64,000 nucleotides of DNA, from positions 62,001 through 126,000 of the forward strand of contig NZ_RKIC01000010.1 of the NCBI RefSeq assembly GCF_003755185.1, given 5' to 3'. The translations under genes and the position numbers were made by a program. Each line of letters begins with the position of its first letter. The stretch's first letter is position 1. Below are positions 35,288 to 49,320 of this stretch, one piece after another. The notes below the pieces were generated by a model that had not been told where the DNA came from, did not search any database, and saw only the letters and a list, made by a program, of their open reading frames with translations. Source of the stretch: Frigoribacterium sp. PhB24. Lineage in GTDB: Bacteria > Actinomycetota > Actinomycetes > Actinomycetales > Microbacteriaceae.

Positions 35288-37030
35288 TTACTTCGCGACG
35301 GCCGGGGTCGCCGCGGGCACGTGCTGCGAGGCGACCTCGACGCCGTGCGAGTCGCGCAGGGTCGTCAGGGTCCGCTCGATCTCGTCGTCACGCTGCTCGG
35401 TCGTCCAGCCGAGCGAGCCGGCCATGACGTCGGCGATCTCGGTGAGCAGCTCGATCGTGACGCCACCGACGAACGCGAGGTTCGTGCGGCGCAACACGAC
35501 GTCGGCGAGGTGGACGGCGTCCTCGTGCTCGGCGAAGTAGGCGATCTCGGCCGTGGTCAGCGTGGGGTCGGCCTCGAGGGCCTGCGACGGCTGGTCGAGC
35601 AGGACGTCGATGACCTCGGAGGCGCGGGTGCCGTAGCGGGTCAGCAGACGATCGACCTGGTCGCGGTCGAGCCCGTCGGCGTGTGCCGCGACCCAGGTGG
35701 TGCGGGCGCCGTCGGTGGTCGGGAACCCCTTGCCGCCGCCGATCGCCATGCCCGTCGTGTCGATGGAGCGCTTCACGCCGAGCTTGGTCGTCGCTTCGGT
35801 CGAGAGGTGGGCCGACAGGGCGCGGAAGGTCGTCCACTTACCGCCGACGAGGCTGAGGACGGTCGTGCCGGGCAGTTCCGTGACCTCGGTCTCGACGATG
35901 CGGTAGTCGCGCGACACGAAGCCGGCCGCGAGGTCGTCGTGCTTGGGCAGCGGTCGGACACCCGAGTATCGGTAGACGATGTGGTCGCGGTTGAGCTCGA
36001 TGTCGGGGTAGACGTGCTTCACCAGATCGAAGAAGTAGTCGACTTCTTCTTCGGTGCAGACGGCGGGCTCCGCCATGTCCGCCTCGAGGTCGGTCGTGCC
36101 GATGAGCACACGCCCCTTGAGCGGGTAGATGAGGACGATCCGGCCGTCGTTGTTCTCGAAGAAGATCTCGCGACCGTTCGTGGCCTCGAGCAGCTCGGGG
36201 CTGTCGACGACGATGTGCGACCCCTTGGTGCCGCCCATGTACTGGGACTCGGCACCGAAGGCCTTGTTGGTGAGGTCGGTCCACGGGCCCGACGCGTTGA
36301 TGACCACGTCGGCCGTCATCGTGAACTCGGTGCCGGTGACGACGTCGCGCAGGGTCACCCCGCCGTCGGCGGTGCCGACGGCCTCGAGGTAGTTGGCGCT
36401 GCGGGCGTTGTCGCCGGCGGCCAGGCCGTCCTTCAGTACGTCGAGCGCGAGGCGCTCGGGCTCGTGCACCGACGCGTCGTAGTAGGTGCCCGTGTACTTG
36501 AGCGCCTTGTTGAGGTGCGGCATCTCGGCCAGGGCCTTCTTGCGGCCGAGGAACTTGTGACGGGGGACCGATCCGCCGTCGCGCGAGAACGAGTCGTACA
36601 TCGTCATGCCGACCTTGATCAGCAGGGCGCCGCGCTCCTTCGTGGAACGCTGCTTGTGCGTGAGCATGCGCAACGGCGCGTTCATGATGCCGCTGAACGT
36701 CGAGAAGATCGGCATCGTCGTCTGCAGGGGCTTGACGTAGTGCGGAGCGATCTTGAGAAGGCCGTTGCGCTCCTCGACGCTCTCGCGGACGAGGCGGAAC
36801 TCGCCGTTCTCGAGGTAGCGGATGCCGCCGTGGATCATGTGCGACGAGGCGGCCGAGGCGCCCGAGGCGTAGTCGGCACGCTCGACGAGCACGACGTCGA
36901 CCCCCTGGAGGGCGAGGTCGCGGAAGGTCGCGATCCCGTTGATGCCACCGCCGACGACGAGCACCTGTGCCGTCGGGCGGTCGACGATGCGCTGCACGTT
37001 GGGACGGATCGAGTCTGTCTTCTTCGACAT
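35288..37030 (-). CDS. glpD: Glycerol-3-phosphate dehydrogenase, FAD-dependent
   Basis: A 580-residue membrane-associated flavoenzyme that oxidises sn-glycerol 3-phosphate to DHAP and feeds electrons to the quinone pool. The FAD motif is VLVVGGGINGIATFRDLALQG near residue 24; ASSHMIHGGIRYLENGEF, GSHIVVDSPELL and SGVRPLPKHDD are family-conserved, as is LVGGKWTTFRALS. Length is normal. The ATG at 37030 is the only start before the divergent SorC-type regulator at 37160, which probably controls it. DHAP/G3P made or used here could also feed the ether-lipid cluster at 41-49 kb. Confidence 0.95.
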   Translation of the reverse strand: MSKKTDSIRPNVQRIVDRPTAQVLVVGGGINGIATFRDLALQGVDVVLVERADYASGASAASSHMIHGGIRYLENGEFRLVRESVEERNGLLKIAPHYVKPLQTTMPIFSTFSGIMNAPLRMLTHKQRSTKERGALLIKVGMTMYDSFSRDGGSVPRHKFLGRKKALAEMPHLNKALKYTGTYYDASVHEPERLALDVLKDGLAAGDNARSANYLEAVGTADGGVTLRDVVTGTEFTMTADVVINASGPWTDLTNKAFGAESQYMGGTKGSHIVVDSPELLEATNGREIFFENNDGRIVLIYPLKGRVLIGTTDLEADMAEPAVCTEEEVDYFFDLVKHVYPDIELNRDHIVYRYSGVRPLPKHDDLAAGFVSRDYRIVETEVTELPGTTVLSLVGGKWTTFRALSAHLSTEATTKLGVKRSIDTTGMAIGGGKGFPTTDGARTTWVAAHADGLDRDQVDRLLTRYGTRASEVIDVLLDQPSQALEADPTLTTAEIAYFAEHEDAVHLADVVLRRTNLAFVGGVTIELLTEIADVMAGSLGWTTEQRDDEIERTLTTLRDSHGVEVASQHVPAATPAVAK

Positions 37031-37091
37031 GGTCACTGCTTCTTTCGAGATGCGATGTCTGGTGGTGGTGACCGACTCGTCGTGCGGGCCG

Positions 37092-37148
37092 GTAGATTCA
37101 TCGTCGTCCCGATGCACACAGGGTGCAACGGATCTGCACGAACGTGCA
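37092..37148. promoter_or_regulatory. Divergent glpD/regulator promoter with two TGCAC...GTGCA operators
   Basis: TGCACACAGGGTGCA (37113-37127) and TGCACGAACGTGCA (37135-37148) are palindromes with identical half-sites. They lie between the divergent genes just before the regulator's Shine-Dalgarno. TAGATT (37092-37097) is a possible -10. SorC/DeoR-type regulators bind such sites, so autoregulation plus control of glpD is likely. Confidence 0.6.
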
Positions 37149-37159
37149 AGGAGGTCCCC

Positions 37160-38122
37160 TTGGCCGTCGGCGATCAGTCGGAACGCACGCAAGAAGCCCT
37201 GCGCGCCGCGCATCTGTACTACATGCAGGACCTCACGATGGAGGCCATCGCGCACGAACTCCAGACGTCCCGCTCGTCGGTCTCGCGCCTCCTGAAGTCG
37301 GCTCGTGAGACGGGGCTGGTCGACATCCAGATCAAGTCCCCGCTCGATCAGCCGACGGCCGTGGGCGAGGGGTTGCAGCGTCGGTTCGGCGTGGTCGCGC
37401 ATGTGGTCCCCGTGCCCGACCAGACGAGCGACGTCGACCGGCTCGACCGGGTCGCGTTGTCGGCTGCACGAACGCTCACGCAGTACGTCGACTCGAACAT
37501 GGTCGTCGGGGTCGCCTGGGGCTCGACCGTCAGCGCGGTCAGCCGCTACCTGGTGCCCAAGACGACGCACAACACCGTCTTCGTGCAGCTGAACGGAGCC
37601 GCCAACACCCGCACCACCGGCATCGAGTACGCCAGCGAGATCCTGCGGAGGTTCGGTCACGCGTACGGCGCCCTGATCCAGCAGTTCCCGGTGCCGGCGT
37701 TCTTCGACGACCCCGCGACGAAGCGGGCCCTCTGGCGGGAACGCAGCACCCGTCGCGTCCTCTCGCTGCAGGGCACCATGGACCTCGTCGTCTTCGGCGT
37801 CGGATCGCGCGAGGCGCACGTGCCGAGCCACGTCTACTCGGGCGGCTACCTCGAGCAGAGCGACCACGAGAGCCTCGTCCACGACCACGTGGTGGGCGAC
37901 GTCGCGACCGTGTTCTTCCGCGAGGACGGCTCGTCGGCCGACATCGAGCTCAACCAGCGCGCCACGGGCCCCGACCTGGCGACCATCCGGCGCACGCCGC
38001 GTCGGGTCTGCGTCGTCGCCGGCGAGGCCAAGGTGGCCAGTGTCCGCGGTGCGCTCGCCGCGGGCCTGGTCACCGACCTGATCCTCGACGAGGGGACGGC
38101 CAGGGCCCTCCTGGCCAGCTGA
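37160..38122 (+). CDS. SorC/DeoR-type sugar-binding transcriptional regulator (glycerol operon regulator)
   Basis: A 320-residue protein. The N-terminal HTH reads HLYYMQDLTMEAIAHELQTSRSSVSRLLKSARETGLV, and the C-terminal effector domain (sugar-bind) shows VGVAWGSTVSAVSRYL, VQLNGAANTR, VFGVGSREAHVPSHVYSGGY and RRVCVVAGEAKVASVRGAL. The TTG at 37160 is preceded by a perfect AAGGAGGT. No ATG or GTG fits better, so this is a confident TTG start. Divergent from glpD with palindromic sites between them. The effector may be G3P or DHAP. Confidence 0.88.
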   Translation: MAVGDQSERTQEALRAAHLYYMQDLTMEAIAHELQTSRSSVSRLLKSARETGLVDIQIKSPLDQPTAVGEGLQRRFGVVAHVVPVPDQTSDVDRLDRVALSAARTLTQYVDSNMVVGVAWGSTVSAVSRYLVPKTTHNTVFVQLNGAANTRTTGIEYASEILRRFGHAYGALIQQFPVPAFFDDPATKRALWRERSTRRVLSLQGTMDLVVFGVGSREAHVPSHVYSGGYLEQSDHESLVHDHVVGDVATVFFREDGSSADIELNQRATGPDLATIRRTPRRVCVVAGEAKVASVRGALAAGLVTDLILDEGTARALLAS

Positions 38123-41465: not shown

Positions 41466-41813
41466 CTAGCGGCCCTGGCGCTTCTTGAACGGCTTGGGCT
41501 GACCCTTGACGGCAGGGGTGCGGCCCTTGCCCTTGGACGCCTTGGCCTTGCCGCCGGCCGGCGGGGGCGGCGGCGGTGTCGGGGTGGACGGACTCGCCAG
41601 TTCGTCCTCGGCGACGACGACGGCAGCCTGGCCGGCCTTGGTCAGACGGTAGGGCGTGGCGTCGCGGTCGAACAGCTTGGCGCCGAACTCGAGCTCGAGC
41701 GCCTCGATCGACGACTCGAGCTTCTGGCGCGAGATGCCGAGCTTGTCGGCCGCGACCGGGAAGTGCAACACCTCGGCGGCGACGAGGAAGTGCCTCAGGT
41801 GACTGGTCTTCAC
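41466..41813 (-). CDS. LysR-type HTH-only small protein with Pro/Lys-rich tail
   Basis: A 115-residue protein. Residues 1-65 are a LysR winged helix-turn-helix (MKTSHLRHFLVAAEVLHFPV, DKLGISRQKLESSIEALELE, FGAKLFDRDATPYRLTKAG) but the effector domain is missing. It is replaced by a poly-proline run (PTPPPPPPAGG) and a basic tail (KAKASKGKGR, PKPFKKRQGR). The frame is intact, so it is a designed small protein rather than a truncation remnant. It overlaps the diiron gene by ATGA as last gene of the lipid operon and could be a nucleoid-like or local regulator. Confidence 0.78.
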   Translation of the reverse strand: MKTSHLRHFLVAAEVLHFPVAADKLGISRQKLESSIEALELEFGAKLFDRDATPYRLTKAGQAAVVVAEDELASPSTPTPPPPPPAGGKAKASKGKGRTPAVKGQPKPFKKRQGR

Positions 41814-42637
41814 GCGGTGGCGACCGAACCGCCGGCGGGGGAGTCCGCCCGGATGCCCAGGCCGTCGAGCGCCTTCTGGAAGATCGTCAGACCGCTCATG
41901 CCGGGCAGGTTCGAGATGTTCTGGTCGAGCTTGACGGCGGCCTTGCGTCCGTCCTCGCCGCTCATCAACTGGCCGAAGACGAACTTCACGTCGTCGACCT
42001 CCATGATGGACGAGCCCACCGGGGCCCAGACCTTCGACAACAGGAACCGCGTGAGCTTCTGGGCCTTCTTGCTAGCGAGCAGGCGCTCACGGGCCTGCGA
42101 GACGTAGAAGGCGACGTGGCGGGCCTCCTGCTTGGCGATGCGTTTCAGCAACTCGGCGAGGACGGGGTCCTTCTCGAGCTCGGCCATGCGCTTGTAGGCC
42201 GAAACGGCCGAGTACTCGTTGGCCGCGCCCCACGACATGTGGACGGCGACGAAGTCCGAGCCGACGATCTTGCCCAGCAGACCCTGCTTGACCGGGTCGA
42301 GGCGCTCACGCCACCCCAGCTTGAGCCGGTTCGCGCGCAGCTGGTCGTAGTCGACCGTGATGCCGTGCACCTCGAGGATGGCGGCCAGGGCCTCGCCGTG
42401 CCAGAACTCCTCGCGGTTCCACATCGTCATGAACGTGGTCATCTCGTTCTCTTTGTGAGAAGGCGTGGTGAGCAGGTCACGGGTGTAGCAGACGGTGTGG
42501 TACTCGACGTCGGCCATGTAGCGCAGGGTCCGCAGCGAGTCGGCCGACAGCGGGTTCTTGCGGAAGTGGTCGAGGTCGAGGTCGTCCCAGCTCAGTCGTT
42601 CGGAGGTCGCCGCGAACTTGTCGATGTCGAAGGCCAT
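41810..42637 (-). CDS. Diiron ferritin-like oxidase/desaturase-type protein with intact ligand set
   Basis: A 275-residue soluble four-helix-bundle protein. The ligand pattern is complete: Glu45 (VEYH), Glu77-Phe-Trp-His80 (REEFWH), Glu141 (NEYS) and Glu171-Ala-Arg-His174 (EARH), the E..ExxH..E..ExxH set of ribonucleotide-reductase-like/acyl-ACP-desaturase-like enzymes. In the lipid operon it is a candidate O2-dependent enzyme acting on an acyl or alkyl chain, possibly forming the vinyl ether of plasmalogens. A chain desaturase or an aldehyde oxygenase are alternatives. It follows the reductase gene by 21 bases. Confidence 0.82.
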   Translation of the reverse strand: MAFDIDKFAATSERLSWDDLDLDHFRKNPLSADSLRTLRYMADVEYHTVCYTRDLLTTPSHKENEMTTFMTMWNREEFWHGEALAAILEVHGITVDYDQLRANRLKLGWRERLDPVKQGLLGKIVGSDFVAVHMSWGAANEYSAVSAYKRMAELEKDPVLAELLKRIAKQEARHVAFYVSQARERLLASKKAQKLTRFLLSKVWAPVGSSIMEVDDVKFVFGQLMSGEDGRKAAVKLDQNISNLPGMSGLTIFQKALDGLGIRADSPAGGSVATA

Positions 42638-42658
42638 GTGATGTCAGGAGGCGCGGGC

Positions 42659-44974
42659 TCAGGCCCTGCCTCCGTCTCCTTTCGCTGTGGTGCCGCTGGT
42701 GCCGCTGCGCGTCCAATCCCGGATGCTCCATCTTCTTCGGAGCGCTTCGCGTGCCAGATTGCTGTCGGGGTTGACCGCGTTCGGATGGCCGACCATCTCG
42801 AGCCAGGCGAGGTCGGCGAACGAGTCACCATAACCGTACGACCCCGAGAGATCGATGTCGTTCGCCTGGGCGTACTGGCGCAGCCATGCGGCCCGTGCCT
42901 CGTCGACCAGCGGGGGCTGCGCGAGGTAGCCGGTGTAGACCCCGTCACGCTGGTGCATCGTGCTGGCGACGACGTCGTCGAACAGGTGCGCCAGGGGAGT
43001 GGTCAAGGTGTCGATCGAGCCCGTGACCAGCACGGTGCGGTGCCCGGCGGCGCGGTGCTCGGCGAGGCGGGCGAGCGCGTCGCGGAGCGTGTGGCGGAGG
43101 ACCGTGTCGGCGTAACCGCGCGAGCGGACCACCCCCGAGAGCCGTGCCACGGGCATCCCCTCGTAGCGTCGCGAGAAGGTGCGGATGAACTCGCCGCGGT
43201 CGCGACCCTCGGCGCGCAGGTAGCGGGGCAGCGAGGTGAGCAGGCTGGCGACCTCGCCGGGCCAGGCGGCCTTGCGGAATCCGGCGGACCGCACCCAGAG
43301 GTACTGCTCGACGATGTTGCTGTCGAGCACCGTGCCCTCGAGGTCGAACACGGCCACGACGTCGTCACGCCGCGGCAGGGCCCGGGTGTCGGCGACGACG
43401 GCCGACGCGGCGGGCCGCACCGAGAACGCCCGGGTCATCGAGGTGATCGACGGGAAGTGCACCTCTTGGAAGTAGGCCTCCCAGTCGACGTCGGTCACGT
43501 CGAAGCCGATGTCGGCGGGCGAGTCCGACGGAAGCCCGGCGTGCAGGGCCCGCGTGCGGCGGTCGTCGAAGATGATCTCGGACTGGACGTAGTGGCGGTA
43601 GAGGTCGGTCAGGCTCTGCAACGACTCGAGGTCGGCCCGGCGGGTCTGCACCCCGGCCAGGGCCGTGCGGGTGCGGAGCGTGCTCGGCAGCCGGGTGAGC
43701 ACGGCCTCGCGGACGTCGTTGACGCGGTTGGCGGTGCGGATGGCACCCTCGACCTTCCGCACACCCGGGAACTTCCAGTGCGGGGCCTCGATCGACGAGT
43801 GCTCGTCGCGGGGTAACGGGTTGGCCGTGAAGAACGCCTTGAGGTTCTCGAACATGCGCAGGATCGAGAACGGGTTGCTGCCTCCCGAGCTGGCGTGGAA
43901 GTACTGCGGACTGCCGGCCTCGACCGGGTTCGCGGCGACGGCGAGGATGACGTTGACCACGTAGTCGACCGGGATCACGTCGAGCACGCTGTCGGGCACC
44001 CCGGGGAACTCGGGCAGCAGGCCGCGGGCGTACGACATGATCAGCGGGTCGGCGACCTTGAAGCCGTCGATCCACCCGGGGTAGGGGTGGCGGTGCGCGC
44101 TCTCGACGATCGCCGGTCGGACGATCGACAGGCGGTGCCCGGCGTCGGCCCAGAGCTCTTCGGCGGCGCGCTCGGCGAACGCCTTGGTCAGTGTGTAGAC
44201 GTCCGTCCAGCCGAGCGTCTCGGCTCGGGTCCGTCCGTAGTCGACGAGACGGGCCTTGACCCAGGCGACCCGCGCCTCCTCAGCCGCCGCGGCGACCGCC
44301 TGCGGGCCGGTCTTGCCGTGCGCCGCACGACCCTGGGCGAGGAAGGTGCGCAGCGTCTCGGGCTGACGCGAGGCTGCCTCGACCCGGGCGCGCGCGTCGG
44401 CGGCCGCGGCGCGCTCGACCCGCCAGTCGACGGTGTGGGCGAGGGACGCCTCGGGGAACACGCCCTTGCGGATGCCGCCGACGTAGGCCGTCGACACGTG
44501 CACCACGTGCGGGTCGGTGCCGGTCTTCCGAAGGGCCTCGTAGAGCCCGACCGCCCCGCCGACGTTGGTCTCGAAGGCCTGGTCGATCGGTGGGTCGAAC
44601 GACACCGTGGACGCGCTGTGGATCACGACGTCGAGGTCGCCGGGCAGGTCGGGCAGGTCGCCGAGACCGCTCTCGATGACGCGGAGCCGCTCGGCGAGGG
44701 CCTTCTCGACGCCCTCGGGCCCCACGGCCTCGCGCCAGGACGAGAACACGGGCTTCTTCAGCAGGTGCCGCAGACGACCCTCGGCCGAGGTGCCGGCCTT
44801 GGGGCGGATCAGCAGCGTGACCGTCGTGCCGGGGTGCGACGAGAGGAGGCGCTCGAGGATGGCCTGGCCGACGAAGCCCGTGCCGCCGGTCAGCAGGACG
44901 TGCGAGTCACCCAGATCGACCCGGGTCGCGCCGGGGGTGCGGTCGGGCAGGGCGAGGCCGGGGGCGGAGCTCAT
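42659..44974 (-). CDS. Fatty acyl-CoA reductase-like SDR (male-sterility type) fused to HAD-IB domain
   Basis: A 771-residue fusion. Residues about 20-480 are an extended SDR of the FAR/NAD_binding_4 type: LLTGGTGFVGQAILERLL, VVIHSASTVSFDPPIDQA, VHVSTAYVGG, catalytic Tyr260-x3-Lys264 (YTLTKAF) and RPAIVESAHRHPYPGWIDG. Residues about 535-760 are a HAD-IB phosphatase-like domain starting FDLEGTVLDSNIVEQYLW (Asp544), with LVTGSIDTL and YGYGDSFADLAWLE. The family can reduce acyl-CoA to fatty alcohol, the second substrate of the AGPS encoded nearby. The HAD motif I has Glu where DxD is usual. It overlaps the upstream gene by ATGA. Confidence 0.85.
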   Translation of the reverse strand: MSSAPGLALPDRTPGATRVDLGDSHVLLTGGTGFVGQAILERLLSSHPGTTVTLLIRPKAGTSAEGRLRHLLKKPVFSSWREAVGPEGVEKALAERLRVIESGLGDLPDLPGDLDVVIHSASTVSFDPPIDQAFETNVGGAVGLYEALRKTGTDPHVVHVSTAYVGGIRKGVFPEASLAHTVDWRVERAAAADARARVEAASRQPETLRTFLAQGRAAHGKTGPQAVAAAAEEARVAWVKARLVDYGRTRAETLGWTDVYTLTKAFAERAAEELWADAGHRLSIVRPAIVESAHRHPYPGWIDGFKVADPLIMSYARGLLPEFPGVPDSVLDVIPVDYVVNVILAVAANPVEAGSPQYFHASSGGSNPFSILRMFENLKAFFTANPLPRDEHSSIEAPHWKFPGVRKVEGAIRTANRVNDVREAVLTRLPSTLRTRTALAGVQTRRADLESLQSLTDLYRHYVQSEIIFDDRRTRALHAGLPSDSPADIGFDVTDVDWEAYFQEVHFPSITSMTRAFSVRPAASAVVADTRALPRRDDVVAVFDLEGTVLDSNIVEQYLWVRSAGFRKAAWPGEVASLLTSLPRYLRAEGRDRGEFIRTFSRRYEGMPVARLSGVVRSRGYADTVLRHTLRDALARLAEHRAAGHRTVLVTGSIDTLTTPLAHLFDDVVASTMHQRDGVYTGYLAQPPLVDEARAAWLRQYAQANDIDLSGSYGYGDSFADLAWLEMVGHPNAVNPDSNLAREALRRRWSIRDWTRSGTSGTTAKGDGGRA

Positions 44975-45792
44975 GCGGTCAGCTTTCTGGTCACGGCGGC
45001 GCCGACGGTGGCATCCATGCCCGGCAGGTCGACGACGAGTGCGCCCACGCGGTCGGCGCGCAGGTGCCCCTCGGCCCCGCCGAAGACGGTGGCGTCGAAG
45101 AAGGTGCGCTCGGAGTCGGCGCGCTCGACGGCACCGACGGGCCACACGGCAGTCAGCAAGGAGGCGCGGGTCATCGTGACCGAGCGGCGTGAGTCGCGCA
45201 GACGCCAGTCGGCCTCGCTCGCGAAGAACCGCTCGTGGCGGGCCTTCACGACCCGGGCCCGGTCGATCACGGTGGTCAGGGTGGGGTGGCCCCCCAGCTC
45301 GTCGAGCCGGTCGTATGCCTCTCGGAGCACCCATTCGTCGACGGCACCCGTCGTTGTGTGGACGGCGACGATCGGGGACCCGACGGTGATGGCCTGGAGG
45401 GCGCGCGTGATGGGGCCGCGACGCTCGACCGCCTCGGAGGCGGCGTGCCGCTTCGGGCCCTCGGGCACGTCGCGGTTGCGGGGCTCGTCGTGGGCCTCGA
45501 GGACGGCGTCGAGAGCGTCGGCCAGCCAGAACTTCTCGAACGCCCAGGTGACGAGGAACGCGGTGACCCTCGTGTCCTTGTGGGTGGCCGTGACCAGCAG
45601 GTTGCGCAGGTTCTCCATCGTCGCGCTCTCGAGCCGGCCGAGGTGGCGGACGAGACGCAGGGCGTCGGGGCCGAGAGGCGTGTCGGCGAAGCCGGACAGA
45701 TCGAGGTCGGGGCGCCAGTTGCCCTGGGCCGTCTTGGTGAACTCGCGGATGTCGAAGTCGAGGTCGGCGCGCGGGGCATCTCTGGTCGTCAT
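44971..45792 (-). CDS. Degenerate diiron-fold protein, paralogue of 41810 gene
   Basis: A 273-residue protein that aligns along its length with the intact diiron protein (e.g. VTAFLVTWAFEKFWLADALDAVLEAH against its counterpart). Of six expected ligands Glu55, Glu153 and His186 remain, but the first ExxH is Lys87-x-x-Leu90 and the second Glu is Lys183 (KARH). It should not assemble a normal diiron site and may be a regulatory or scaffolding partner. It is first in the minus-strand lipid operon, with GGAGGA eight bases before ATG 45792. The frame is intact, so it is under selection rather than decaying. Confidence 0.78.
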   Translation of the reverse strand: MTTRDAPRADLDFDIREFTKTAQGNWRPDLDLSGFADTPLGPDALRLVRHLGRLESATMENLRNLLVTATHKDTRVTAFLVTWAFEKFWLADALDAVLEAHDEPRNRDVPEGPKRHAASEAVERRGPITRALQAITVGSPIVAVHTTTGAVDEWVLREAYDRLDELGGHPTLTTVIDRARVVKARHERFFASEADWRLRDSRRSVTMTRASLLTAVWPVGAVERADSERTFFDATVFGGAEGHLRADRVGALVVDLPGMDATVGAAVTRKLTA

Positions 45793-45890
45793 GACGGGTG
45801 ATCCTCCGGGGCAGATGTGGACGAGGCGAGAAGGGCCTCGAACGGGTCTCGATGCGCGCAGTCTGCTCTCAGCACCGTATCGTAAGCGGC
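45793..45890. promoter_or_regulatory. Divergent promoter of the two lipid operons
   Basis: Only 98 bases separate the divergent starts. TATCGT at 45878-45883 suits a plus-strand -10, placing the start site at the ATG at 45891 (leaderless, as no Shine-Dalgarno is present). The minus-strand TACGAT overlaps it (45879-45884), so the two promoters may share or compete for the same site. The LysR-HTH protein is a candidate binder. Confidence 0.45.
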
Positions 45891-46670
45891 ATGGCTGTAG
45901 CGCTCGTCACCGGGGGCACGTCCGGCATCGGAGCCGAATTCGCCCGCCAACTCTCCACGCGCGGCTGGGACATCGTCCTGGTCGCCCGTGACCTCACCCG
46001 ACTCGACGAGACGGCGACCGCGCTGCGCGCGCTCGGCCGCGACGTCGAGGTCATCGCGGCCGACCTCGGCGACCGTCGTGACGTCGATCGGGTCGCCGAA
46101 CGACTGGCCGATCCGACCCGTCCCGTCGACCTCTTGGTGAACAATGCCGGCTTCGGCATGCACACCCCGCTGACCTCCACCGACGTCGCCGCGCACGACC
46201 TCGCGTTCGAGGTCATGTGCCGGGCCGTCCTCGTGCTCTCGGGTGCCGCCGCCCGGTCGATGCGCGAGCGCGGGCACGGGCGGATCATCAACGTGTCGAG
46301 CACCGCGGGCCTCATGGCCATGGGCGGCTACTCGGCCGTCAAGGCGTGGGTGACGTCGTACAGCGAGGGACTGTCCGTCGAGCTGAAGGGCACCGGCGTG
46401 GGCGTCACGGCCCTGCTGCCGGGTTGGGTGCGGACCGAGTTCCATCAGCGCGCCGGCATAAAGTCGTCGTCGATACCCAACGCCCTGTGGCTCAGCACCG
46501 AACAACTCGTCGTCGCGTGCCTGCGCGACGTCGACAAAGGCAAGGTGATCTCCATGCCCACGCTTCGGTACAAGGTGCTGATGGGATTGGTCCGACACGC
46601 CCCGAAGGGCGCCGTCCGTGCCGCGTCGGGCGCGATCTCGTCGAGCCGCCGCAAGCCAGGGGGGCAGTGA
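45891..46670 (+). CDS. Short-chain dehydrogenase/reductase, candidate acyl/alkyl-DHAP reductase
   Basis: A 259-residue classical SDR: TGGTSGIGAEFARQL at the N-terminus, LVNNAGFGMHTP, catalytic Ser in NVSSTAGL and Tyr-x3-Lys in YSAVKAW. The C-terminus is basic (AISSSRRKPG), which could favour membrane contact. Encoded directly before PlsC and AGPS homologues and overlapping the PlsC gene by GTGA, it is well placed to reduce alkyl-DHAP to alkyl-glycerol 3-phosphate. This is inferred from context, not from motifs. ATG 45891 seems leaderless. Confidence 0.82.
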   Translation: MAVALVTGGTSGIGAEFARQLSTRGWDIVLVARDLTRLDETATALRALGRDVEVIAADLGDRRDVDRVAERLADPTRPVDLLVNNAGFGMHTPLTSTDVAAHDLAFEVMCRAVLVLSGAAARSMRERGHGRIINVSSTAGLMAMGGYSAVKAWVTSYSEGLSVELKGTGVGVTALLPGWVRTEFHQRAGIKSSSIPNALWLSTEQLVVACLRDVDKGKVISMPTLRYKVLMGLVRHAPKGAVRAASGAISSSRRKPGGQ

Positions 46671-47626
46671 GCGTGCGGAACGATCGCGACGGGCGCCGCG
46701 AACACGCGCGCCTCGACGCCGTGGCCCAGCGCGTCGACGACGTCCGGGCCGACGTGGCCCAGCGCGCCGGTGACGTGGCCCAGCGCGCCGGCGGCGTGGC
46801 GAGCGACGTCCGCGACCGGTTCAGTTCACGTCGGCACGCGATGGCGCGCTACGTCGCCCAACGCATGGTGCTCAAGCCGACGATCTGGTCCATCACCGAC
46901 GTGACCGTGATCGACCGTGACCGCGTCGAAGGCCTGACGGGCGGCTTCATCGTCGTCGCGAACCACTCGAGCCACCTCGACGCCCCGCTGATCCTGGGCG
47001 CCCTGCCGCGCAAGCTGGCGCGGTACCTCGCCACGGGTGCCGCGGCCGACTACTTCTTCGACGTGCCCTGGCGGCGTCAGCTGACCGAACTGTTCTTCAA
47101 CGCGTTCCCGGTGCAGCGGGGCTCGGGGACCCCGGCGTCCGCGGCCGACGCGACCCGCGCCTCCTCGTCCGGTGCGTCGGCGGGGTCGACGCCGCAGAGC
47201 TCGGCCCGTCGGCGGGCCGCGGCCAAGGCGGCCGCCCGCGGACGACAGGGACAGCCCACGGTCAGCGCGCGATCGCTGTTGCAGCGCGGTTATCCGGTCC
47301 TGGTGTTCCCCGAGGGCACCCGCTCGAAGGACGGCACGGTCGCCGCGTTCAAGCCCGGAGCCGCGGCCCTCGCGTCGGCCTGTGGCGTGCCGGTGGTGCC
47401 GCTCGCCCTGATCGGCGCCAACATCGCCCAGCCCCGGGGCCGGAGCTGGCCCCGGCCCGGCCGGCTCCCCGTCGGGGTCGCGTTCGGCGACCCGATGCGA
47501 CCCCACGACGGCGAGTCCGTCACCGACTTCTCGACGCGTGTGCGCACCGAGATCCTGCGTCTGAAGGACGCCAACACCGCCCGCATCCTGGGCCCGTCAG
47601 ACCCGCTCGAAGGAGAACGCCCGTGA
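46667..47626 (+). CDS. 1-acyl-glycerol-3-phosphate acyltransferase family protein (PlsC-like)
   Basis: A 319-residue acyltransferase. The catalytic HX4D is NHSSHLDAP (His100, Asp105), substrate motif FPEGTRSKDG (Glu216), and GVPVVPLALIG completes the family pattern. The N-terminus has heptad-like repeats (VAQRAGDVAQRAGGVASDV) that look amphipathic. An extra low-complexity Ser/Ala/Arg segment of about 45 residues separates motifs I and III. It would acylate DHAP, alkyl-G3P or lyso-lipid in the ether-lipid pathway. GTG 46667 overlaps the SDR stop; the next gene overlaps by GTGA. Confidence 0.85.
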   Translation: MSVRNDRDGRREHARLDAVAQRVDDVRADVAQRAGDVAQRAGGVASDVRDRFSSRRHAMARYVAQRMVLKPTIWSITDVTVIDRDRVEGLTGGFIVVANHSSHLDAPLILGALPRKLARYLATGAAADYFFDVPWRRQLTELFFNAFPVQRGSGTPASAADATRASSSGASAGSTPQSSARRRAAAKAAARGRQGQPTVSARSLLQRGYPVLVFPEGTRSKDGTVAAFKPGAAALASACGVPVVPLALIGANIAQPRGRSWPRPGRLPVGVAFGDPMRPHDGESVTDFSTRVRTEILRLKDANTARILGPSDPLEGERP

Positions 47627-49320
47627 CCGACGTCCAGCAGAAGAAGAGCCCCGCCGTCGACGGCGTCAAGCACATGAAGTGGTGGGGTTGGGGCGTCGAG
47701 GGCGTCGCGTTCCACCACGACGACAAGCCGGCCTTCGCCCCCTTCGTGAAGAAGATCGTGGGCGTCGAGTTGTCCCAGGGGCACGACACCGGCCTCTCGT
47801 TCGACGACCTCGACGTGCCCGCCTCGCGGGCCGGCACCGAGGTGCTCGACTCGCTCGTCCAGATCGTGGGCGACGGCCAGGTCGTCACCGAGGACCACGA
47901 CCGGGTCGTCCACACCTACGGCAAGAGCATCCGCGACCTGATCCGCATCCGTGCGGGACGCCTCGATCGTGTGCCCGACGTCGTCGTCTACCCGGCCGAC
48001 GAGGACGAGATCCAGCGGATCGTCGACCTCGCCGTCGCGAGCGACCTCGTGCTGATCCCGTTCGGCGGCGGCAGCAACATCGTCGGCAGCCTCGAGCCGC
48101 TCCCCGCGGAGGAGCGCACGGTCGTCTCGCTCGACATGGGTCGCCTCGACAAGGTGCTCGACATCGACGAGGACGGCGGACTCGCGCGCATCCAGGCGGG
48201 CGGCCAGGGCCCCGACCTCGAAGAGCAGCTGAACGCCCGCGGGTGGACCCTCGGGCACTTCCCGGACAGCTTCACCCACTCGACCATGGGCGGCTGGGTC
48301 GCCACCCGGTCGTCGGGCATGCAGAGCGACAAGTACGGCGACATCGCCGACATCACCAAGGGGCTGCGGGTCGTCCGACCCGGGGGCGTGCTCTCGATCC
48401 GCGCCGTGCCCAGCGCCTCGACCGGGCCGTCGCTGCGCGAGATGATCATCGGCAGCGAAGGACGCCTGGGCGTCATCACCGAGGTCACGGCCCAGGTGCA
48501 CCGCCTGCCCGAGAAGCGCGAGATCCTCGCGTACCTGTTCCCGTCGTGGCACGACGGCCTCGCCGCCATGCAGGCCATCGCCGAGAGCGACGTCAGCCCG
48601 TCCGTGACCCGCGTCAGCGACGCGCACGAGACCGCGTTCTCGTTCGCCACCTCGAAGCCGGGCAAGGGCATCTCGCAGAAGGTCACCGACCTGCTGCCGA
48701 CGATCCTGAAGGCCAAGGGTTGGGACGTCGACGCCATGTGCCTGTCGTTCATCGGCTACGAGGGCAGCCCCGAGCACGTCGCCCACACCCAGAAGGCGGT
48801 CGCCAAGATCGTCAAGGCGAACAAGGGCATGAGCGTCGGCAAGGGGCCGGGCAAGCTCTACGACCAGAAGAAGTTCGACACGCCCTACCTGCGCGACTTC
48901 TTCATGGACCACGGAGGCGCGGCGGACGTCTCCGAGACCGCCGCCCCCTGGTCGAAGCTGCGCCTCGTGTCGTCGCGGGTCTACGCGGCGGCGAACCAGG
49001 CGTTCGACCAGATCGGCAAGCAGGGCTGGATCATGGGCCACCTGTCGCACTCGTACCACTCGGGGGCGTGCCTCTACTTCACCTTCGCCTTCGAGCACGG
49101 CGACGACGCCGAGGCCGAGTACGACGTGGTCAAGCACGCCATCCAGCAGGCCTTCATCGACACCGGGGCGACCGTCTCGCACCACCACGGCGTCGGGCTC
49201 GAGCACCAGCCGTGGCTCGCACAGGACGTGTCGCCCGAGGGCGTGGCCGTCATGCAGGGGCTGTTCGACTCGGCCGACCCGGGCCGCGTGTTCAACCCCG
49301 GGAAGGTGACGGGCGCGTAG
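47623..49320 (+). CDS. Alkyldihydroxyacetonephosphate synthase-like FAD enzyme (AGPS family)
   Basis: A 565-residue flavoenzyme of the VAO/FAD_binding_4 group. AGPS-specific features include HMKWWGWGVEG near residue 16, YGKSIRDLIRIRAGRLDRVP, the FAD loop LIPFGGGSNIVGSLE, THSTMGGWVATRSSGMQSDK, GSEGRLGVITEV, SYHSGACLYFTF and the HHHGVG active-site histidines. AGPS exchanges the acyl chain of acyl-DHAP for a fatty alcohol and so makes the ether bond. The match is along the whole chain, which separates it from D-lactate dehydrogenases. Last gene of the plus-strand operon; a hairpin at 49366 follows. Confidence 0.9.
   Translation: MTDVQQKKSPAVDGVKHMKWWGWGVEGVAFHHDDKPAFAPFVKKIVGVELSQGHDTGLSFDDLDVPASRAGTEVLDSLVQIVGDGQVVTEDHDRVVHTYGKSIRDLIRIRAGRLDRVPDVVVYPADEDEIQRIVDLAVASDLVLIPFGGGSNIVGSLEPLPAEERTVVSLDMGRLDKVLDIDEDGGLARIQAGGQGPDLEEQLNARGWTLGHFPDSFTHSTMGGWVATRSSGMQSDKYGDIADITKGLRVVRPGGVLSIRAVPSASTGPSLREMIIGSEGRLGVITEVTAQVHRLPEKREILAYLFPSWHDGLAAMQAIAESDVSPSVTRVSDAHETAFSFATSKPGKGISQKVTDLLPTILKAKGWDVDAMCLSFIGYEGSPEHVAHTQKAVAKIVKANKGMSVGKGPGKLYDQKKFDTPYLRDFFMDHGGAADVSETAAPWSKLRLVSSRVYAAANQAFDQIGKQGWIMGHLSHSYHSGACLYFTFAFEHGDDAEAEYDVVKHAIQQAFIDTGATVSHHHGVGLEHQPWLAQDVSPEGVAVMQGLFDSADPGRVFNPGKVTGA

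Follow-up and report, generated by a model that had tools for sequence, protein, structure and literature searches.

A divergent gene block of Frigoribacterium and its relatives: a candidate ether-lipid pathway with a putative soluble vinyl-ether desaturase

Dimethyl acetals, which mark plasmalogens, have been reported for Microbacteriaceae, aerobic bacteria in which no enzyme is known to form the vinyl ether. Here, we analyse a block of seven genes at positions 41466-49320 of a 64,000-nucleotide stretch of the Frigoribacterium sp. PhB24 genome (contig NZ_RKIC01000010.1, positions 62,001 to 126,000; hereafter the window), in which a homologue of alkyl-dihydroxyacetonephosphate synthase (AGPS) stands together with two diiron-type proteins, labelled DI1 (41810-42637) and DI2 (44971-45792). 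Our data suggest that the block, as judged from its sequence, very probably encodes an AGPS-type ether-lipid pathway. Plasmalogens are its most likely end product, a reading in which we place slightly more belief than doubt, and the DI pair may supply the plasmalogen double bond.

Plasmalogens count as an exception among aerobic bacteria, and true CarF homologues outside the myxobacteria had been reported only in Leptospira (PMC9131029). A literature search with subscription journals mostly outside its coverage found neither a gene for the dimethyl acetals of Microbacteriaceae nor any work on this gene block or its role. With the block, culturable organisms offer a set of genes open to testing, among them a candidate for a new soluble vinyl-ether desaturase. 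If DI1/DI2 acts in this way, a chemistry for which the animal gene was assigned only recently would have been arrived at by convergence, and such a protein may be easier to purify than a membrane enzyme.

The AGPS homologue and the predicted alkyl-ether genes

The ether-lipid assignment is carried by the protein encoded from position 47623. In a comparison with the Protein Data Bank (PDB) it matches Dictyostelium AGPS (2uuu) with 398 bits (E 4.9e-118) and mammalian AGPS (4bby) with 287 bits (E 2.9e-84), compared to 86 bits (E 2.5e-23) for D-lactate dehydrogenase and 78 bits for glycolate oxidase. The first, sequence-only reading of the window had placed it in the AGPS family and had named a closer relationship to D-lactate/glycolate oxidases as the result that would speak against this; the scores show the opposite, and a lactate/glycolate oxidase is rejected. 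The top NCBIfam model is GlcD with 130 bits against a cut-off of 568, no AGPS model being among the matches. R330, R424, Y485 and H521 align with R419, R515, Y578 and H616 of 4bby (numbers counted along the printed alignment row), which we take to be the catalytic residues of the mammalian enzyme. The first three are kept in all 98 distinct homologues and H521 in 97 of them, the remaining one having a gap.

That the AGPS homologue performs another flavin adenine dinucleotide (FAD) reaction and no glycerol ethers are made is improbable. Deletion of the AGPS homologue of Myxococcus xanthus, lowering ether lipids only slightly (PMC9131029), is in line with such an explanation, but the four catalytic residues kept, the full alkyl-dihydroxyacetone phosphate (alkyl-DHAP) gene set standing together and the dimethyl acetals reported in taxa carrying the block argue against it.

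The block comprises the following features:

41466-41813, minus strand: HTH, helix-turn-helix protein consisting of a LysR-type DNA-binding domain only, 115 amino acids (PF00126, E 3.6e-13; GTG start)
41810-42637, minus strand: DI1, soluble diiron oxidase/desaturase-like protein, 275 amino acids (putative ligands E45, E77, H80, E141, E171, H174)
42659-44974, minus strand: FAR-HAD, fatty acyl-CoA reductase-type short-chain dehydrogenase/reductase (SDR) fused to HAD-IB, 771 amino acids (PF07993, E 8.1e-46; PF12710, E 2.6e-28)
44971-45792, minus strand: DI2, degenerate twin of DI1, 273 amino acids (equivalents of E77, H80 and E171 lost)
45793-45890, no strand: divergent spacer of 98 base pairs separating the two arms
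45891-46670, plus strand: SDR, candidate acyl/alkyl-DHAP reductase, 259 amino acids (PF00106, E 3.3e-42; TGxxxGIG and YxxxK kept)
46667-47626, plus strand: PlsC-type acyltransferase, candidate DHAP acyltransferase or sn-2 acyltransferase (PF01553, E 3.4e-20; HX4D, FPEGTR)
47623-49320, plus strand: AGPS, alkyl-dihydroxyacetonephosphate synthase homologue, 565 amino acids (PF01565 and PF02913)

All seven genes are open and tightly packed in two divergent arms. Four 4-base overlaps join neighbouring genes: the HTH start overlaps the DI1 stop, the FAR-HAD start the DI2 stop, and the PlsC and AGPS starts each the preceding gene, while 21 bases lie between FAR-HAD and DI1. Coordinates, overlaps and the short spacer confirm the two tightly coupled divergent gene sets, which the sequence-only reading called operons. 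The start of FAR-HAD is most likely 44974, rather than the start of the longer mechanical open reading frame. A promoter scan of the spacer found no sigma-70-type consensus site.

YxxxK is intact in the reductase domain of FAR-HAD. Motif I of its HAD domain reads D-x-E in 98 of 98 rows, and the activity of the fused domain is uncertain since HAD phosphatases usually have D-x-D. The best NCBIfam model of the SDR is mycolate reductase, below the cut-off (153 versus 380 bits). HX4D and FPEGTR of PlsC are found in 11 of the 12 rows being long enough, the remaining one showing a gap or variant; motif counts refer to distinct sequences above a length limit, and for PlsC only 12 rows passed because the best segments were short. 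For SDR and PlsC the Pfam scan input carried a few extra N-terminal residues.

PlsC, AGPS and SDR on one arm would match the animal-pathway steps of DHAP acylation, alkyl exchange and reduction (PMC9131029). In the model proposed here we infer every reaction, their order, the DI1-DI2 complex and its substrate. PlsC would acylate DHAP, FAR would turn acyl-CoA into a branched fatty alcohol, AGPS would exchange the acyl group for this alcohol resulting in alkyl-DHAP, and the SDR would reduce it to 1-alkyl-glycerol-3-phosphate, to which housekeeping enzymes would attach the sn-2 chain and the head group. DI1, usually paired with the ligand-less DI2, would then take two hydrogens beside the ether oxygen, using O2 and generating the vinyl ether.

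Two genes at 35288-38122, a few kb from the block, were assigned by eye only, one to a GlpD-like glycerol-3-phosphate dehydrogenase and the other to a SorC-like regulator; DHAP, with which the pathway starts, would be the product of GlpD. AGPS is split into two frames in Frondihabitans sucicola (L156:2309-4008) and in a further genome (L068, G135), their relatives holding intact copies; within Frondihabitans the gene is whole in Leaf304.

The diiron-type pair DI1 and DI2

DI1 falls below the Pfam thresholds, matching FA_desaturase_2 (PF03405) with 21.0 bits against a cut-off of 22.7 and rubrerythrin likewise sub-threshold; DI2 has no Pfam match at E<=1, and neither protein matches PF10520, the CarF/PEDS1 domain, at E<=1. 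E45, E77, H80, E141, E171 and H174 are invariant in 62 of 62 DI1 alignment rows, a predicted six-ligand diiron pattern, whereas all 63 DI2 rows lack counterparts of E77, H80 and E171, with conserved residues of their own being retained. The rows include two genomes twice (L036/L072, L046/L087), and those of DI2 two lone distant homologues. We relied on alignment columns after a strict motif expression, allowing no variation around the ligands, had matched 71 of 89 DI1 rows. An intact diiron protein with a degenerate twin, as the earlier reading had it, is thereby borne out. Over 264 columns, DI1 of the window and DI1 of Frigoribacterium sp. MEB024 show no difference.

The AlphaFold2 model of DI1 (mean pLDDT 85) finds stearoyl-ACP desaturases as best PDB folds in Foldseek, followed by R2-like ligand-binding oxidases (R2lox). 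For DI2 (mean pLDDT 91) R2-like oxidases are closest, with no match at E<=0.001 in the fold search; among its weak matches are PaaAC at rank 36 and aldehyde-deformylating oxygenase (ADO) at rank 42 (E 0.41). This last match, together with the FAR-type reductase adjoining ferritin-like diiron proteins, speaks for a route in which FAR and the DI proteins form an aldehyde-consuming oxygenase system leading to hydrocarbons or oxidised chains, with AGPS as a side branch, for which cyanobacterial AAR/ADO is the model. We consider this highly improbable: the best 50 fold matches of DI1 are desaturases, R2lox and ribonucleotide reductase R2, with ADO not among them, and AGPS is accompanied by FAR in 55 of 55 AGPS genomes of the family sample described below.

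A DI2-type match is present in all 59 DI1 genomes of the same sample. An obligatory DI2 is nevertheless rejected, as Jiangella has DI1 and the block but no DI2. The simplest history would be a lone desaturase-like DI1 followed by a duplication giving rise to the inactive partner. Two genomes of the same genus (G171 and G045), both lacking DI1, each hold a lone DI2-like protein that has lost the ligands (L037 and L071).

Distribution of the block and reported lipids

The family sample consists of 199 Microbacteriaceae genomes, DI1 being counted above 350 bits and block-type AGPS above 500 bits. DI1 is found in 59, block-type AGPS in 55 and FAR-HAD in 56 genomes, those with FAR-HAD being spread over 28 of 85 genera. 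Both DI1 and AGPS are present in 53 genomes, DI1 alone in six, AGPS alone in two and neither in 138 (Fisher p 8e-39, relatedness ignored); one DI1-only (G107) and one AGPS-only case (G113) sit at contig edges. In all 53 genomes with both, the window's included, the six enzyme-like genes lie within one fetched stretch, and 51 show the usual order DI2, FAR-HAD, DI1 on one arm and SDR, PlsC, AGPS on the other, the DI pair lying some kb away from the other four genes in G097 and G159. Eight layouts display DI2 and SDR swapped, which we take as an artefact of frame midpoints since the open frames overlap.

Across 66 layouts the six genes stand together in 54, and in a scan of named genomes, covering the best 80 of 254 relatives with the named taxa being those nearest Agreia, at 64 of the 80 loci. 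Eleven further loci hold DI2-DI1 pairs alone, and five are of other kinds: two short contigs (L133, L163), a second copy in a metagenome-assembled genome (MAG; L118) and two Jiangella loci. The recurrence of the six genes is far above chance. Conservation of the whole block in other Microbacteriaceae, suggested by the sequence-only reading as a check, is found for these six but not for the HTH gene, which lies beside DI1 only in Frigoribacterium (the window, three genus-mates and 12 of 12 named isolate loci) and is not found there in two MAG loci bearing the genus name.

Taxa with the block include Agreia bicolorata, A. pratensis, Glaciihabitans tibetensis, Galbitalea soli, Frigoribacterium faeni, F. 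endophyticum, Frondihabitans, Subtercola lobariae, Herbiconiux, Labedella and Salinibacterium xinjiangense. In a group probably representing Subtercola, assigned from common inserts and from a nucleotide identity that is mostly 78-87% across the block, DI1 and DI2 occur in 12 of 12 genomes and AGPS in 3 of 3 of those searched. The whole six-gene block is also found on a 2.35-Mb linear plasmid of Streptomyces sp. NBC_01450 (L031, 1065753-1084544), an indication that the block can be transferred from one family to another.

In S. lobariae (L174:6596-8856) the space between FAR-HAD and DI1 holds two further genes, one for a Lar_N-domain protein and one for another acyltransferase of the PlsC type. 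Similar sequence is present in L032, L086, L094 and partly in L131 (Labedella), and the Labedella locus has an insertion of similar size at the same site.

Searches for the domains of known vinyl-ether enzymes found none in the DI1 genomes of the family sample. PF10520 has no match in any of the 199 family genomes or 14 control genomes, and is present in 4 of 149 phylum genomes, which shows that the search works. DUF2229, which we take to be part of anaerobic PlsA, is found in one family genome (G062) and in none with DI1, compared to 4 of 14 control genomes. In G327, belonging to another Actinomycetota family (L274:2903-6065, C68), a PF10520 gene is convergent with a FAR gene, which itself comes directly after an AGPS gene of which the contig holds only the C-terminal end. 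At this parallel locus AGPS-FAR has a CarF-type protein for a neighbour, in the place held here by DI1/DI2. Since other lipid desaturases fall under PF10520 as well, G327 may not encode a true CarF.

Methanolysis turns vinyl ethers into dimethyl acetals. The occurrence of these in Subtercola, stated in the earlier reading, proved correct: four Subtercola species contain 6.9-17.0% iso-16:0 dimethyl acetal and 3.2-11.0% anteiso-15:0 dimethyl acetal (PMC5945732), and S. lobariae has the block. Low iso-15:0 dimethyl acetal is reported for Agreia (PMC5945732), and 15:0 anteiso aldehyde/dimethyl acetal for strain D8 and F. faeni (PMC12823222). Of the taxa with the block, Subtercola, Agreia and F. 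faeni are among those reported with dimethyl acetals, Frondihabitans and F. endophyticum among those reported without. In all, AGPS identity, its catalytic residues, the coupling of AGPS and FAR and the taxa with dimethyl acetals lend good support to the ether-lipid pathway first proposed from the letters of the window alone.

For DI1, with DI2, a role as the vinyl-ether desaturase is plausible, the chances being about balanced. This part of the sequence-only reading, a soluble diiron vinyl-ether desaturase unrelated to CarF, would fit the fold, the lack of PF10520 in the family, the link to AGPS and the parallel in G327; orphan pairs, unlinked distant homologues and the two taxa described without dimethyl acetals are not in line with it. 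The following observations weigh against the role.

Eleven orphan DI2-DI1 loci occur in Agromyces, Leifsonia, Glaciibacter and Humibacter; in the nine of these genomes that were searched no AGPS was found at E<=1e-30 (L120 and L126 lay outside the search). In the family sample G025, G102, G079 and G057 likewise have DI1 without AGPS, and in G142 the only AGPS homologue is distant, with 36% identity. On the DI1 tree the orphan loci cluster amid block-bearing rows, a grouping that is unsupported (36). Distant DI1 homologues are found in 19 other Actinomycetota genomes, only two of which have AGPS: DI1 matched 36 of 396 phylum genomes at E<=0.001, of which three family genomes and 14 weak matches (E 4.7e-10 or worse) were excluded. 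Compared to the AGPS background of 69 in 390 non-family genomes there is no enrichment among carriers of DI1 homologues. A DI pair tied to AGPS everywhere is thus rejected, by orphan pairs and distant homologues without AGPS. The orphan pair either took on another task or its role was always wider; by eye and from gene starts only, no common pathway was found among the neighbours of orphan pairs and distant homologues.

Adding to these, the top fold match of DI1 is modest (TM 0.61, E 9e-4, about 16% identity), and in both Jiangella genomes DI1 stands without DI2, the other genes of the block being located elsewhere. In the draft genome G101 (85% complete) the block lacks both DI genes, which would fit a pathway stopping at alkyl ethers. 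None of the other three PF10520 genomes belongs to the 72 phylum genomes with AGPS, and the neighbourhood examined in one of them (L276) has no AGPS. As to lipids, Frondihabitans is described without dimethyl acetals in the available part of PMC5945732, yet carries the block. No aldehyde/dimethyl acetal is reported for F. endophyticum or F. salinisoli in that of PMC12823222, and an F. endophyticum strain has the block. Five Subtercola type strains contain much 18:1, dimethyl acetals being unmentioned in the available part of PMC9287328.

Part of the 14:0 2-OH reported in Microbacteriaceae may be misnamed anteiso-15:0 dimethyl acetal, a possible reason for the mismatch in Frondihabitans and F. 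endophyticum. Judging by retention values, MIDI profiles may give the acetal this label. S. boreus and S. frigoramans have 11.0 and 10.3% anteiso-15:0 dimethyl acetal in one report (PMC5945732) versus 10.4 and 9.9% 14:0 2-OH in another (PMC9287328); for S. vilae (3.2 versus 15.6) and S. lobariae (9.7 versus 3.9) the amounts disagree, and strain D8 is listed with both names side by side (PMC12823222). With the TSBA 6 database 14:0 2-OH amounts to 17.0% in F. faeni and 4.2% in G. tibetensis, and to a trace only in Lacisediminihabitans profunda (PMC7033078); the block is present in a Lacisediminihabitans of another species (L132).

The same observations bear on an explanation which we regard as rather unlikely, namely saturated alkyl ethers being made via AGPS, with DI1/DI2 altering the chain otherwise (desaturation elsewhere, hydroxylation) and the vinyl-ether enzyme being encoded outside the block. 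Orphan pairs without AGPS, unlinked distant homologues, the acyl-ACP-desaturase-like fold of DI1 and the 14:0 2-OH and the traces of a-15:1 reported in block taxa are in its favour. It is countered by the tight co-occurrence of DI1 and AGPS in the family, by DI1 genomes having neither PF10520 nor the PlsA marker and by the fatty acids of Subtercola, which are otherwise saturated, with a-15:1 at trace level at most (table of PMC5945732).

Comparison with known systems

Seen beside the known systems, DI1/DI2 could represent a third independent vinyl-ether route, i.e. a soluble diiron desaturase with an inactive partner in most hosts, explaining the dimethyl acetals of aerobic Microbacteriaceae, a proposal which we make tentatively and with marginally more doubt than belief. 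With acyl-ACP desaturases and R2-like ligand-binding oxidases DI1 shares the six-ligand diiron pattern; its predicted fold comes nearest to theirs, at the modest scores given above, and it differs from the former in staying under the Pfam cut-off, in its low identity and in usually standing beside a ligand-less paralogue. Ferritin-like pairs of active and inactive proteins are known from PaaA/PaaC, the alpha and beta subunits of methane monooxygenase and yeast Rnr2/Rnr4. Like these, the hypothetical DI1-DI2 complex would join an active diiron subunit to a paralogue losing its ligands, the substrates being different.

With PEDS1/TMEM189/CarF (PF10520) DI1 would have in common, by analogy, the proposed Delta1' desaturation of an alkyl ether lipid, being in contrast a ferritin-like diiron protein without a match to this domain. 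The anaerobic PlsA/PlsR system, the genes of which occur in some Actinobacteria (PMC9702350), likewise leads to a vinyl ether, yet is reductive and starts from diacyl lipids; its DUF2229 marker and DI1 do not coincide in the family sample. Closest in gene content is M. xanthus with MXAN_1676-1674, elbA-E and CarF (PMC9131029). Unlike that system, the Frigoribacterium genes form one compact divergent block having FAR fused to HAD and a soluble diiron pair, with no PF10520 match and no ElbD-like multidomain protein among the block genes. Alike are the aerobic setting, the AGPS homologue, the plasmalogens, as predicted for the block, and a set of FAR-like and acyltransferase domains, reductases and a HAD protein (PMC9131029).

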